From Flavobacteriales bacterium (GTDB taxonomy: Bacteria > Bacteroidota > Bacteroidia > JACJYZ01): a DNA stretch of 61,022 nucleotides. Where the stretch lies: contig JAGQZQ010000008.1 in the NCBI GenBank assembly GCA_020435415.1, forward strand, positions 1-61,022. The letters are read 5' to 3'. Under the pieces are notes generated by a model that saw nothing but the letters and a program-made list of their open reading frames with translations, was not told the DNA's origin and did no database searches. Shown here one piece after another: positions 24,259 through 55,010 of the stretch; within the stretch, counting starts at the first letter, position 1, and each line of letters opens with the position of its first letter. The position numbers were made by a program, and so were the translations under genes.

Positions 24259-25008
24259 TTATATAAAGCTCAACCTGCTCATCAGGTCTTCCTTATATGA
24301 ACCGCCAATCGGAATAACCTTTTTATCCACCCCAATGATCAGGTTGGAATCCTCAATAATATCAATCTTATCGATGTTCACAATAAAGGATCGGTGTGCC
24401 CGGACAAAATGCTTCGTTGGCAGTTTCTTTTGTATGTCCTTCATCGTGGAATGGATCGTATACCTTTCGGAAACGGTATTTACCACTACGTAGTCTTTGA
24501 GAGCTTCCACATAAAGGATATCCTCAACTTTCACCCTTTTCTGTCTGGAATTGGATTTTACGAAAACACTGTCGGCCGTTGTATTGCTGATAATAGCGGA
24601 ATAAATGTCCCTTTCCTTGCGAACATTGATATCCAGGGCATACTTATGCAGTGCGATCTCAATGGTCGTCTTCAGGTCCACCTCCTTGAACGGTTTAATG
24701 ATGTAGCCGAAAGGTTCCGCATGCTTTGCGCGGTTGATGGTACTCTCATCCGCGTATGCTGTGAGGAAGATGACCGGAATGCTCATGTCTTTCCACATTT
24801 CTTTGGCGGCTTCAATGCCATCCATATCTCCCTTTAACATAATATCAACCAGCGCCAGGTCTGGTTTCACTTCACCCGCTGAACGCAGGGCGTCTTCTCC
24901 GGAGGAAACAACATCGGTAATCTTATACCCTAATTTGGAGAGGCTATTTTCAATGTCCTTCGCTACAATTTTTTCATCCTCGACGATCAAAATAGATGTC
25001 TGTGCCAT
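24259..25008 (-). CDS. LytTR-family response regulator
   Basis: The 249-residue protein has an N-terminal receiver domain (about 4-120) with acidic pocket EDE near residue 11, phospho-acceptor Asp55 in ALVDIMLKGD and the conserved Lys in IIKPFKE. A LytTR DNA-binding domain occupies the C-terminus (about 150-247; FVKSNSRQKRVKVEDILYVE, FVRAHRSFIVNIDKI). LytTR proteins bind pairs of short direct repeats one or two helical turns apart. It is encoded 14 bp after a multi-PAS histidine kinase, which is its likely phosphodonor. The nadA and YwqK genes lie upstream in the same run. I did not find a convincing LytTR repeat near this operon. Confidence 0.93.
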   Translation of the reverse strand: MAQTSILIVEDEKIVAKDIENSLSKLGYKITDVVSSGEDALRSAGEVKPDLALVDIMLKGDMDGIEAAKEMWKDMSIPVIFLTAYADESTINRAKHAEPFGYIIKPFKEVDLKTTIEIALHKYALDINVRKERDIYSAIISNTTADSVFVKSNSRQKRVKVEDILYVEALKDYVVVNTVSERYTIHSTMKDIQKKLPTKHFVRAHRSFIVNIDKIDIIEDSNLIIGVDKKVIPIGGSYKEDLMSRLSFI

Positions 25009-49864: not shown

Positions 49865-52174
49865 TCACTTCCCATCTTTGCCCATCACCCCATCCAGTTC
49901 CCTGATCACCTTCGGGTGGAGGTTCAACAGCAAGCGTGTATTATCGGCAATCCGGTGTATTGGCTCTTTGTCCGCTGCCCAGTGTTCGATCTCCCGGAGA
50001 AGCCGGAAGGCTGCCTTGGCACCTAACATCTCATACGATGATTTGAGGCTGTGACCGATCTGACGCAACAGGTCGTAATCCTTCTCTGCAACGGCATTTT
50101 GTAATCGTTGCAGTTCTCTCGGCGCATCCTCGAGAAAGATGGTCACCAGCTCTTCCATCACTTCCTTGTTGCCGAGTGTATTCCGTTCCAGTTCGGTCAG
50201 ACTGATATGCTGGTAGCCGGAGGCGGCTTTCTTTGTCTTTCGTTTTTTGGTGGTACCCTTTGCGTTTAACAACATACCCAGTACCCCCATCAGTTGTTCT
50301 CTTTTAAATGGCTTGGAGATGTATTCGTTCATGCCCACGGCCAGGCATTTTTCCCTTTCCCCGGCCAGGGCATGGGCGGTCATGGCTACAATGGGTACCT
50401 TGTCCTCAAGTTCGTTGCGGATCACTTTTGTGGCGGTGTAGCCATCCATTTCCGGCATTTGCATGTCCATCAGTACCACATCATATTGCTTCTTGACCAT
50501 CATGGCCACTGCGATCTTACCGTTGATGGCGAGGTCCACGTGGGCTTCGGTATCTGCAAGGTAGGCCATCACCAGTTTGCGGTTCATCCGGTTGTCATCC
50601 ACCAGTAGAATCTTGCGTCCGGCCAGGTCCACATGATCCAGTTCGATTCCCTTTTGAAGTTTGTTTGACCGGCTGTCTTCACCTTCGGTATCAAAGGGAA
50701 GCTCCACCAGGAAGGTCGATCCTTTGTCCACCTGGCTTCTTACCCTGATCTTTCCGCCCTGGAGATCTACCAGTTTGCTCACAATGCTCAAACCGAGCCC
50801 CACGCCTTCATATCTTCGGGCATGGTCACTTTCTACCTGTGTGAACCGGTCAAAAATGGATTCCAGTTTTTCGATGGGAATACCGATGCCGGTGTCTTTC
50901 ACATAAAATTGGAGAATGGCTTTCCCTTTCTTTTTGGAGATCGTTTTCGCACCAACTTCTATCTTGCCCTGATCTGTAAACTTGATTGCGTTGTTTAAAA
51001 GGTTGATCAGGATTTGAGTAAGCCTTACAGGATCGCCATAGATCACCTTTGGTAAATTCTTGTCGCACTTTGCCGTCACCTTATTGCCATACATCAACGC
51101 TTTGCTGGACATCATGGTGATCACGGAATCGATGAGTTCGTCGGGATGAATGGCCGCCTTCTGGAACTCGATGTGACCGGATTCGATCTTTGAGAAATCC
51201 AGGATGTCGTTGACAATCGCAATAAGCCTTTCTGTGGATTCCCGGATAATGGAGGTATAGTCGGACTGTACCTTGTTGAGGCTGGTGTCGGAGAGCAGAT
51301 CGGCAAATCCCAGCATAGAATTGAGTGGTGTGCGAATCTCATGGCTCATATTGGAGAGGAAAATATCCTTGATACGCAATGAGTCTTCTGCCATTTGTTT
51401 GGCTTGCTTCAGCTCCTTTTCCCGCGAGATCAGTTCCGTGATATCAATGGCTGAGCCTATAACTGTCATCTTCCCATCTTCTTCATGGGTTACGTTACTA
51501 TATTTCCAGTAAAGTATTTTTCCTGTACGTGATACCATCTTCATAACCCCTTCACTCCGGTGGTTGGCCAGGATGTCTTTGATGTAAAGTCCGAAAGCCT
51601 GTCGGGTATTGTCTGCCAGTAAATCTCCGATACTGGTCCCGATCAGTTCTTTTTCTGTGTATTCCAATGCATTGCAGCACGCCTCGTTTACGGTGAGGAC
51701 AATACCGTCCATGTCATGTGTACAGAGCAATCCATTGGAGTGCTGGAAAAGCTTCCGGTATTTCTCTTCGGATTTTTTGCGATCGCTGATATCGATGATG
51801 GCCACCCGCCGGGTGATCAGGTTTCCCTGGGTGTCTTTGATGGCGTTGACATGGATGCCTCCCCAAAACAGGGAACCGTCTTTTTTGATCATCTCCGTTT
51901 CCAACCGGACCTTGTTTTTCCCGTCGGCATACTGGTCAAATACGTGTTGCGCCTTTGCACCTCTGATCTTACCGATAGCATACAAATCGGTGGCATTGAG
52001 ACCCACTAATTCTTTCTTATACCGGTATCCAAATAAGCTGAGCGCTGCCTGGTTTACGTTGTTGATCTTCCCTTCATTGTTTACGGCCAGATAGGCCATA
52101 GGCGCATCTTCAAACAGCGTTTTGTAATCGATGTTTGCCATGTCAGATAATAGGATGGCGGAGGTAGCTTTCAT
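49865..52174 (-). CDS. Hybrid PAS histidine kinase with receiver and HPt domains
   Basis: The 769-residue cytosolic kinase has two PAS domains (about 15-130 and 140-255), a HisKA domain with SHEIRTPLNSMLGF, and a HATPase_c domain (NNAIKFTDQGKIEV, GTGIGIPIEKLESI-like DTGIGIPIEKLES, GVGLGLSIVSKLV). A receiver domain (about 520-640, VVLMDMQMPEMDG) and a C-terminal HPt domain (about 670-760, IGHSLKSSYEMLGA) follow. This multi-step phosphorelay layout normally passes phosphate to a separate output regulator. A LytTR regulator is encoded 2 kb upstream on the same strand, beyond two T9SS genes, and is a good candidate partner. An ATG at 52141 is an alternative start. No transmembrane helix is seen. 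Confidence 0.93.
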   Translation of the reverse strand: MKATSAILLSDMANIDYKTLFEDAPMAYLAVNNEGKINNVNQAALSLFGYRYKKELVGLNATDLYAIGKIRGAKAQHVFDQYADGKNKVRLETEMIKKDGSLFWGGIHVNAIKDTQGNLITRRVAIIDISDRKKSEEKYRKLFQHSNGLLCTHDMDGIVLTVNEACCNALEYTEKELIGTSIGDLLADNTRQAFGLYIKDILANHRSEGVMKMVSRTGKILYWKYSNVTHEEDGKMTVIGSAIDITELISREKELKQAKQMAEDSLRIKDIFLSNMSHEIRTPLNSMLGFADLLSDTSLNKVQSDYTSIIRESTERLIAIVNDILDFSKIESGHIEFQKAAIHPDELIDSVITMMSSKALMYGNKVTAKCDKNLPKVIYGDPVRLTQILINLLNNAIKFTDQGKIEVGAKTISKKKGKAILQFYVKDTGIGIPIEKLESIFDRFTQVESDHARRYEGVGLGLSIVSKLVDLQGGKIRVRSQVDKGSTFLVELPFDTEGEDSRSNKLQKGIELDHVDLAGRKILLVDDNRMNRKLVMAYLADTEAHVDLAINGKIAVAMMVKKQYDVVLMDMQMPEMDGYTATKVIRNELEDKVPIVAMTAHALAGEREKCLAVGMNEYISKPFKREQLMGVLGMLLNAKGTTKKRKTKKAASGYQHISLTELERNTLGNKEVMEELVTIFLEDAPRELQRLQNAVAEKDYDLLRQIGHSLKSSYEMLGAKAAFRLLREIEHWAADKEPIHRIADNTRLLLNLHPKVIRELDGVMGKDGK

Positions 52175-52208
52175 ACAAATGTAGTTGAGATAGATGAGAG
52201 ATGGGCTA

Positions 52209-52862: not shown

Positions 52863-52923
52863 GGTCTGATAGTTTTAGTAAGTATGTTTACTTAAAAAGT
52901 TCACCTGATCAATCGGATTTTGG

Positions 52924-52974
52924 TTGGTTGGAGCCCGGTTCTCGTTGAATGGTATTTTATTCTCGTTGAATGGT
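52924..52974 (-). promoter_or_regulatory. LytTR-like repeat array upstream of paralogue 1
   Basis: TTGAATGGT occurs at 52945-52953 and 52966-52974, exactly 21 bp apart, inside a perfect 16-bp direct repeat TTCTCGTTGAATGGTA (52939-52954, 52960-52975). A third, weaker unit TTGGTTGGA occupies 52924-52932 in the same 21-bp phase. On the gene strand the core reads ACCATTCAA, close to the LytTR consensus [TA][AC][CA]GTTN[AG][TG], which binds as repeats with a 12-bp spacer. Units begin 62, 83 and 104 bp before the start codon. Confidence 0.75.
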
Positions 52975-53023
52975 AATCAGGGAAATCACCTATAAACAGG
53001 ATAGAAGGTGGGGTAAAATGCAA

Positions 53024-53053
53024 TGATGGTATGGAAAGGCTTCCATACCATCA
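53024..53053 (-). terminator. Terminator-like hairpin after paralogue 2
   Basis: TGATGGTATGGAA (53024-53036) and TTCCATACCATCA (53041-53053) form a perfect 13-bp stem with a 4-nt loop, 23 bp after the stop of the 362-residue gene. Only a weak T-rich tail (TTGCATTTT) follows on the minus strand. Confidence 0.65.
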
Positions 53054-53075
53054 CCGTGCTGAGACAGGCCTCAGA

Positions 53076-54164
53076 CTATCGTGTCAGGATCTTTTGGGAC
53101 AGGACTGAATTTCCTGACACCAGGGTAACCACGTACATGGTGTGACCATTCAGGTTCACGTCATACAGGGTTACACTGTTCATACCTTCCTGGCTTTGGA
53201 GGCTGCTGGTAGCGATCGTTCTTCCACTGAGGTCAGTGATCATTACACGAGCAGGTGCATTGTTGTCCTGCAGGAAGGAGATTTGCAGAAGACCTTCACC
53301 ATCTGATTGGCGTACGGTGAGGTCATTGATGCTTGCTGAAGGAGCTACAGCCACTACTTCAGAGAAGCTGTTCTTTCCGTTGAAGTCTGTTTGGCGGATG
53401 CGGAAGTAGCGTGTGAAGGGAGCAGCCTCAACATTCATGTTATAAGTGTTGGTTGTTGTGCTGTTTCCTGCACCTTGTACAGTTGTGATGGCTTCGAAAG
53501 ACACACCATCAGTGCATACTTCAACGGAGAAGAAGTCGTTGTTGATCTCGGTGGCAGTGGCCCACTCGAGGTTCACTCCGTTGTCGTTGCTGGTGGCATT
53601 CAGGTACAACCAGCTGACAGGCAGTGCGCCGGGGGTGTGAGAGAGACCATGAACTTCCATTTGCTTTACCGCACCGGCAACGCCACCGTACAATTTCACT
53701 TCAATTTCATCGAAGTCTGCATCTGCGAAGAAATATACTTCATAAACGGTCAGACTTGAAGCCTGAAGTTGAACAGTCATATCGGAACCGGTGAAGGTGC
53801 TTCCTACCTGAACACCGTCGTTATACAGGGTCACTTCAAGAGAGCTGAGCTCTGTTGCGGTCAGGGCAGCGGACCCTGAAGCGGCTACGGCTACCTTGTT
53901 ACCGGCGATACCGTCTTCGGTGAAGGAAAAGCGCTCGTATACAAAAGTACCGGTTTTGGAAGCGTGGCTTTTCAGTGTTGCTGAGGTAGCCATATCAGAA
54001 CCAAGGGCGTCATCTGCGTTGAGCACTTTGCAACCTTTGCACTCGTCGTTCATTCCGTTGCTTTGAGCTGCGGCATAAACAGTAGCGTTAGCATTGGAGA
54101 TCATCAATGAGAGGTAGGCGAGGATCAGGGTTGCTTTTTTCACGGTGTTGATTTGTTGGTTCAT
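53076..54164 (-). CDS. T9SS-exported surface protein, paralogue 2
   Basis: The 362-residue protein has a signal peptide (LAYLSLMISNANA) and a jelly-roll-like N-terminal module (about 30-180, TFVYERFSFTEDGIAG, VYFFADADFDEIEVKLYGG) that includes a CKGCK motif. The second module, about 185-280, matches paralogue 1 (VSWLYLNATSNDNGVNLEW; YFRIRQTDFNGKNSFS). A T9SS type A sorting domain ends it (LVSGNSVLSQKILTR). Both proteins should be surface-displayed through type IX secretion. The extra module could bind carbohydrate, but no ligand is known. It is preceded by a LytTR-like repeat array and then by the LytTR regulator gene. Confidence 0.9.
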   Translation of the reverse strand: MNQQINTVKKATLILAYLSLMISNANATVYAAAQSNGMNDECKGCKVLNADDALGSDMATSATLKSHASKTGTFVYERFSFTEDGIAGNKVAVAASGSAALTATELSSLEVTLYNDGVQVGSTFTGSDMTVQLQASSLTVYEVYFFADADFDEIEVKLYGGVAGAVKQMEVHGLSHTPGALPVSWLYLNATSNDNGVNLEWATATEINNDFFSVEVCTDGVSFEAITTVQGAGNSTTTNTYNMNVEAAPFTRYFRIRQTDFNGKNSFSEVVAVAPSASINDLTVRQSDGEGLLQISFLQDNNAPARVMITDLSGRTIATSSLQSQEGMNSVTLYDVNLNGHTMYVVTLVSGNSVLSQKILTR

Positions 54165-54226
54165 GGTTTTGATTGTTTAATCACCCATGTTTACCGGAAA
54201 GCGTTCCCCTTTAGAAGGGATATTAG

Positions 54227-54277
54227 TTGACCGGGTCCAACAACTCGTTGAACGGTATGTCGACCTCGCTGAACGGG
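54227..54277 (-). promoter_or_regulatory. LytTR-like repeat array upstream of paralogue 2
   Basis: Three units with 21-bp phase are seen: TTGACCGGG (54227-54235), TTGAACGGT (54248-54256) and CTGAACGGG (54269-54277). On the gene strand they read CCCGGTCAA, ACCGTTCAA and CCCGTTCAG, separated by 12-bp spacers, the geometry described for LytTR sites. Units begin 63, 84 and 105 bp before the start codon, within 1 bp of those at paralogue 1. GTAAACAT also occurs 22-23 bp before both start codons, a candidate core promoter element. The LytTR gene lies directly upstream, so regulation by it, including feedback, is plausible. Confidence 0.78.
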
Positions 54278-54311: not shown

Positions 54312-55010
54312 CTATTTCAGCAGGTTGAGCTTGCTTAGTAAGGCCTTCTTGTTTGATCGGCTGACCGGCACATTATGCCCATCCATAACGGCCACGAAAT
54401 CGTCTATGGCCATGATGCGATCAATGCGTGCAATATAGGAGCGGTGTGTTTGGAAAAAATTCTCTTCTCCGAGTTTTTCACTGATCTCGGCCAGGGTGGA
54501 ATATACGGTGTATTTGTGGTTGGCGGTGTGGATGGAAATATAGTCTCCAAGAGCCTGCACATAGAAGATATCCGCTTTTCGGATACGGACAAGGGCTCCG
54601 TCTGCTTTCACGAATATCTCATCCTTGTCGGGGGCTTTGGTGGTTTCAATTTCCTTCCCTGCCTGCTCCTGCGCCTTTTTCACGGCTTTCAGAAAACGTG
54701 CATAGTTCACAGGTTTTACGAGGTAGTCCACTACGTTGTATTCAAATGCTTCCAGGGCGTATTCTTTATGGGAGGTCACCAAAATGACCATGGGTAAATC
54801 CGGCAAGTTCTTGATCAGATCCATTCCGGTCATGTCGGGCATTTCTATATCCAGAAAGATCAGGTCAGGGGGGGATTTCATCAAGCCTATGGTTGCTTCG
54901 GTACCGTTATCGTAAATCGCCTGAAGGCTCAGTTCGTCGGTTTCCTCGATAAAATTCTTGAGCATGCTTTGTGACATGCGATTGTCATCAATGACTGTAC
55001 AGCTTAGCAT
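54312..55010 (-). CDS. LytTR response regulator beside the T9SS paralogues
   Basis: The 232-residue protein has a receiver domain (about 3-120) with an acidic pair VIDDN, phospho-acceptor Asp54 in LIFLDIEMPDMTGMDLI and Lys in LVKPVNY. A C-terminal LytTR domain (about 135-230, FVKADGALVRIRKADIFYV; FFQTHRSYIARIDRIMAID) follows. No kinase gene is adjacent, but the hybrid kinase three genes downstream is a likely partner. The repeat arrays in both paralogue promoters are good candidate binding sites. The gene's own upstream region (55011-55105) shows no copy of the repeat, only a terminator for the previous gene. Confidence 0.93.
   Translation of the reverse strand: MLSCTVIDDNRMSQSMLKNFIEETDELSLQAIYDNGTEATIGLMKSPPDLIFLDIEMPDMTGMDLIKNLPDLPMVILVTSHKEYALEAFEYNVVDYLVKPVNYARFLKAVKKAQEQAGKEIETTKAPDKDEIFVKADGALVRIRKADIFYVQALGDYISIHTANHKYTVYSTLAEISEKLGEENFFQTHRSYIARIDRIMAIDDFVAVMDGHNVPVSRSNKKALLSKLNLLK

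Follow-up and report, generated by a model that had tools for sequence, protein, structure and literature searches.

What controls two tandem surface-protein genes that lie between a LytTR response regulator gene and a hybrid histidine kinase gene, each with the same kind of repeat array ahead of its start codon? Little is known about how the transcription of single T9SS cargo genes is controlled. Bacteroidota genomes have about ten or more LytTR regulators each, but few binding sites of this little-studied regulator class are known in the phylum, and the publications that we found describe only the Bacteroides LRS-like repeats. Here, we analysed the window (the whole stretch of DNA, 61,022 nucleotides), which is contig C8 in the draft genome (3.48 Mb, 194 contigs) of an uncultured member of the Bacteroidia.

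Genes and products at the locus

On the minus strand, the order is LytTR regulator, paralogue P1, paralogue P2 and hybrid kinase (Table 1), and the gene positions in the first-pass annotation are correct. The regulator is a LytTR response regulator by its Pfam domains, both of which exceed their cut-offs (PF00072, 71.5 bits; PF04397, 74.9 bits), and it contains an FFQTHRS motif. Against the BtsR equivalog NF008677 it scores 116.5 bits for a threshold of 246; by this profile score it is similar to BtsR but not a BtsR. The genome encodes ten LytTR domains. Another LytTR-domain gene is found in the window at 24259-25008 (-) (78.4 bits); no intergenic ACCRTTCA array was detected in its vicinity.

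P1 and P2 are tandem paralogues with 55% identity across 182 aa. P1 scores 24.6 bits with TIGR04183, above the cut-off of 23; P2 scores 16.4 bits, under the cut-off, in a part that is 55% identical to P1. The inverted repeat between them is a possible P1 terminator, although the terminator scan did not pick it up. An exact Bacteroidota -10 (TACATTTG) is found at 52176-52183 (-), one base before the listed kinase start at 52174. Translation is more likely to start at the ATG at 52141. The kinase may be transcribed from a promoter of its own, which makes a P2-kinase operon less likely.

Table 1. Coordinates of genes, repeat units and promoter elements at the locus
Feature	Position	Strand	Remarks
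LytTR response regulator, 232 aa	54312..55010	-	receiver + LytTR; nearest NCBIfam profile BtsR, under its cut-off
Paralogue P1, 362 aa	53076..54164	-	signal peptide-like start; T9SS type A sorting domain
Paralogue P2, 217 aa	52209..52862	-	55% identical to C-terminal half of P1
Hybrid histidine kinase PAS-PAS-HisKA-HATPase-receiver-Hpt, 769 aa	49865..52174	-	alternative start ATG 52141
P1 distal unit 1, CCCGTTCAGCGAG	54265..54277	-	
P1 unit 2, ACCGTTCAACGAG	54244..54256	-	
P1 weak proximal unit 3, CCCGGTCA	54228..54235	-	2/8 mismatches
Putative -10 of P1, GTAAACAT	54187..54194	-	TA 55 bp after unit 2; 4/6 match to TAnnTTTG
Perfect 13-bp inverted repeat	53024..53053	-	between P1 stop and P2 promoter
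P2 distal unit 1, ACCATTCAACGAG	52962..52974	-	perfect copy of unit 2, 21-bp step
P2 unit 2, ACCATTCAACGAG	52941..52953	-	
P2 weak proximal unit 3, TCCAACCA	52925..52932	-	3/8 mismatches to ACCRTTCA
Putative -10 of P2, GTAAACAT	52884..52891	-	TA 55 bp after unit 2; 3/6 match to TAnnTTTG

Direct repeats shared by the two promoters

Both paralogue promoters contain two strong units ACC(A/G)TTCA(A/G)CGAG at matching positions, spanning 52941-52974 ahead of P2 and 54244-54277 ahead of P1. The conserved repeat is the 13-mer ACCRTTCARCGAG. On the gene strand the pair reads ACCATTCAACGAG-8bp-ACCATTCAACGAG before P2 and CCCGTTCAGCGAG-8bp-ACCGTTCAACGAG before P1, so that either promoter can be described as an 8-bp core plus 13 bp or as a 13-mer plus 8 bp, with a step of exactly 21 bp.

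The first-pass annotation had reported plus-strand units related to TTGAA(C/T)GGT, and direct reading of the sequence bears out their positions: TTGAATGGT at both 52945 and 52966 (9/9 each) and TTGGTTGGA at 52924 (6/9) in the P2 array, and TTGAACGGT at 54248 (9/9), CTGAACGGG at 54269 (7/9) and TTGACCGGG at 54227 (7/9) in the P1 array. The distances given to the start codons (62/83/104 and 63/84/105 bp) are also right, and GTAAACAT is indeed present before both paralogues. The spacing is that of LytTR operators, namely direct repeats of about 9-11 bp placed 10-13 bp apart with a step of about 21-22 bp. The LytTR repeat consensus, [TA][AC][CA]GTTN[AG][TG], is loose; ACCGTTCAA fits it at 8/9 and ACCATTCAA at 7/9 positions.

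The description of a three-unit array stands for the placement of the third unit and overstates its quality, this unit being degenerate in both promoters. For an 8-mer at a given position, the chance of at most three mismatches is about 0.05 and that of at most two about 0.01. Judged on sequence alone the third unit is weak, yet it falls in the expected slot. The proposal that the regulator occupies three faces of the helix does not hold: a step of 21 bp corresponds to two turns of B-DNA, and the units therefore share one face.

After the boxes, the longest conserved block in the P1 and P2 promoters is GTAAACAT. Its TA lies at a gap of 55 from unit 2 in both promoters, a fixed position for an element that is itself a weak match to the Bacteroidota -10. 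A gap of 55 from unit 2 is a gap of 34 from the weak third unit, and this fit of the promoter geometry (34 bp to the GTAAACAT TA) supports the third unit. The poor -10 would fit activator dependence. Scans for sigma-70 promoters and terminators gave no excess over shuffles, as expected in the case of sigma-70 given the Bacteroidota promoter type, and no Rfam family was matched close to these arrays.

Occurrence in the genome and conservation

Searching the window for the exact two-unit pattern gave a single match, and 100 dinucleotide shuffles gave zero. Single units occur at chance frequency (39 observed, 37.7 expected), so only the pairing is meaningful. In the whole 3.48-Mb genome, the extended pair with up to three mismatches is found at only these two promoters, with 0 matches in the control, and the suggested test for a genome-wide T9SS regulon came out negative. 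The looser 8-mer pair gives 202 matches genome-wide compared to 108 in the reversed control. Further targets in the same genome were considered and rejected: among the matches to the 8-mer pair listed at up to two mismatches, all others judged fall in coding frames, two contig-end loci being left out. In this genome, the two promoters seem to make up the entire regulon.

Between P1 and P2, the two 13-mers are identical at 22/26 positions, the spacers at 5/16 and the other upstream positions at 52/107 (strong units versus the rest of the upstream regions, Fisher P = 0.0009). We take the boxes to be under purifying selection. P1 and P2 being tandem paralogues, the matching position by itself might simply go back to their common ancestor, and with just two to three units per array the repeats might be a leftover of the duplication or a functionless short tandem repeat. 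Inheritance from the duplication does not, in our comparison, explain why the boxes are far better conserved than the remaining upstream DNA. Together with the occurrence of the motif at a constant distance from the -10 in promoters of unrelated Bacteroidota genes (below), this makes such an origin extremely unlikely.

A related motif in Bacteroidota promoters

We gathered ACCRTTCA pairs in 60 relatives of the same class, the level at which the nearest relatives are found, and then in 295 genomes of the class. Steps of 21, 24, 27 and 33 bp all peak in the raw counts. Raw spacing counts were discarded as evidence, being misleading through coding periodicity, probably ACC-ATT read as codons. Splitting coding from intergenic sites resolved this confounding effect, and many short-step matches that are microsatellites, for example (ACCATTC)n, were dropped. 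Pairs with the 21-bp step are intergenic at 35 of 54 sites, typically 59-110 bp ahead of a start codon; all nine pairs with the 24-bp step are coding.

We also searched 84,980 genomes for ACCGTTCA-13-ACCRTTCA with TAnnTTTG (the Bacteroidota -10) 22-52 bp further on and obtained 24 loci, 17 of them in Bacteroidota/Kapaibacterium. The gap is exactly 34 in 7 of these 17 loci (31 gaps allowed; binomial P = 5e-7). The fetched locus set, which overlaps with the result of this search, has its main peak at a gap of 34 (12 sites) and another at 55, equal to 34+21 (4 sites). The window promoters are best classed, by their sequence geometry, with the 55 group, having a degenerate proximal unit. Two other loci (L174 and L176) likewise belong to this class, their degenerate unit being GCCGTTCG.

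LytTR genes are found in 7 of the 31 intergenic motif loci compared to 1.3 expected (P = 4e-4), and in none of the eight 24-bp control loci. For example, two LiaF-like operons with a LytTR gene (L178 and L133) have the box 82-101 bp upstream of the liaF-like gene, and at L211 a LytTR regulator gene lies 206 bp behind its own box. T9SS or surface proteins are also among the targets elsewhere, namely a GH39-like protein (L199; TIGR04183 22.3 for a cut-off of 23) and a secreted protein of more than 2266 aa (L200).

The LytTR-type operator reading put forward in the first-pass annotation is thus upheld by three lines: a core that agrees with BtsR/YehT DNA at 7/8 positions with the same 13-bp spacer, the fixed distance to the -10 in Bacteroidota promoters and the enrichment of LytTR genes near such sites. 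We regard the arrays as a predicted but real LytTR operator array, a further case of a known operator type. Another family with 21-bp direct repeats, such as an AraC-type hybrid two-component regulator or a SusR-like protein, is very unlikely to be the reader. Its appeal lies in the spacing, as Bacteroides HTCS sites are direct repeats of 16+5 or 12+9 bp, also a 21-bp step (PMC3878776), and the 13-bp conserved unit with an 8-bp spacer is near this design. The core matches BtsR DNA, however, LytTR genes lie near homologous sites (the two LiaF-type operons and the LytTR gene directly behind its own box among them), and there is no AraC-type gene among the annotated neighbours.

The search also uncovered several loci of separate interest. 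At L175:3919-4700, 4 bp separate the end of a LytTR gene from the array that follows, which is the regulator-then-array order of the window. At L180:3769-4800, a LytTR-type pair lies 62 bp before a ligand-gated ion channel-like gene (LGIC_1 59 bits, below cut-off). In three genomes of one genus (G038, G078 and G112) we found an intergenic stem-loop RNA of about 60-90 nt with the core GGTTGATTCCCCARTGGGTTGAGTCCC and a U-run end (L123:5893-6110, L124:6107-6500, L126, L218, L219 and L221). Each genome has 1-4 copies, all of them immediately downstream of a 21-bp array of 3-4 ACCRTTCA-type units with a TAnnTTTG-like -10; the RNA has no Rfam match and is apparently a LytTR-controlled multi-copy small RNA. 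The genome G038, which has this array-driven RNA, also carries a 3-unit array 83 bp before a D-2-hydroxyacid dehydrogenase-like gene (L125:5077-6141). Finally, L127:1962-2242 (G006:C64) contains at least 10 ATCGTTCA-like units in 21-bp steps with a 42-bp higher-order period; this would be a minisatellite or else a LytTR-type array of giant size.

Regulator and proposed phosphorelay partner

The kinase at 49865-52174 contains HisKA, HATPase, receiver and Hpt domains, and in the window the two paralogues separate its gene from that of the regulator. Hpt domains are rare, with 1-4 per genome in the nine genomes checked. In most genomes, hybrid kinases or Hpt proteins flank the best matches of the regulator in relatives (at most 46% identity), and an Hpt gene lies within about 6 kb of the best match in 8/8 relatives, these having been chosen after their neighbourhoods had been seen. 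A kinase with both receiver and Hpt, together with this linkage in relatives, makes the phosphorelay partnership proposed at the outset plausible.

The next question is which LytTR protein reads the arrays. With ten LytTR domains in the genome, another regulator could do so while the neighbour controls something else. In other genomes, the proteins that best match the neighbour (46% identity or less) have no such array close by, and co-evolution of regulator and operator is consequently not seen; moreover, most motif sites elsewhere are not beside a LytTR gene (none within about 9 kb in 24/31 loci). Against this, the genome has just these two arrays, both no more than 1.4 kb away from the regulator gene 54312-55010, and LytTR genes are enriched near such sites elsewhere. 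We consider it unlikely that another of the ten LytTR regulators is the reader.

Proposed mechanism

We consider it likely that the neighbouring regulator, phosphorylated via the hybrid kinase, binds the arrays and activates both T9SS paralogues. The arrays would serve as operators for a LytTR response regulator, and the product of the gene immediately upstream (54312-55010) is the most likely one. Phosphorylation would probably proceed through the receiver-Hpt relay of the kinase. The phosphorylated regulator would then bind the two strong ACCRTTCARCGAG units on one DNA face and extend onto the weak third unit, beside RNA polymerase, thereby activating both paralogous surface-protein genes from the poor GTAAACAT elements. 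Binding by this regulator, phosphotransfer, activation rather than repression and surface display of the products are inferred.

Repression by the same regulator has a precedent in CoxC, a LytTR protein with a three-repeat operator that acts as a repressor (PMC11347149). The CoxC repeats overlap the -35, whereas at P1 and P2 a distance of 34 bp separates the end of the proximal unit from the putative -10, which is the slot of activating LytTR sites. The -10 elements are also poor, and we judge a repressor role quite unlikely.

A wider reading, on which we are evenly divided, is that ACC[AG]TTCA-13bp-ACC[AG]TTCA at 34 (or 34+21) bp before TAnnTTTG constitutes a general operator code of Bacteroidota. 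Many different LytTR regulators would read it, recognising a common core and owing their specificity to a 3' extension that differs between lineages (CGAG in this case). Its targets would range from surface and T9SS proteins through LiaF-type envelope operons to a multi-copy small RNA, and the window would represent an Hpt-phosphorelay branch with a private two-promoter regulon. A motif at a fixed distance to the Bacteroidota -10 makes LytTR regulons predictable from sequence, and the locus would link a two-component phosphorelay to named T9SS surface proteins.

Comparison with known LytTR operators

One of the closest known counterparts is the operator of BtsR (YehT), a LytTR response regulator, at E. 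coli btsT/yjiY. Our comparison rests on the oligonucleotide printed in PMC4847170, in which the bound DNA is ACCGCTTA-13bp-ACCACTCA with a step of 21 and a related unit 20 bp upstream. The spacer and step are the same as in the window, and the core agrees with the BtsR type ACC[GA]CT[CT]A at 7/8 positions, the difference being T instead of C at position 5. The partner of BtsR is the LytS-type kinase BtsS compared to what is probably a hybrid HK-receiver-Hpt protein here, and the system belongs to another phylum and has other targets.

The Bacteroides LRS-like operators (B. thetaiotaomicron, B. ovatus) are also direct repeats ahead of a promoter, in which the last 11-bp repeat is followed by TGTA and 19 bp and then TATCTTTG (PMC6193735). 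This spacing computes to 11+4+19 = 34, equal to the main Bacteroidota gap found here. They differ in having 11-bp repeats with an 11-bp spacer (step 22), and their regulators are membrane-bound LytTR proteins with no receiver and no T9SS target.

LytTR sites generally consist of two direct repeats 10-13 bp apart, and RcoM1 and CoxC have three-repeat operators, with all three repeats needed for efficient binding of CoxC (PMC11347149). Like the arrays in the window, these are three direct repeats about two turns apart; their repeat is TTCNNGCA/TTNNNGCN, and the proteins are CO-sensing one-component regulators, CoxC being a repressor (PMC11347149). Finally, S. aureus AgrA also places LytTR domains on direct repeats, with the promoter-proximal repeats centred near -60 (PMC4227749), although its repeat sequence is different and it serves quorum sensing.
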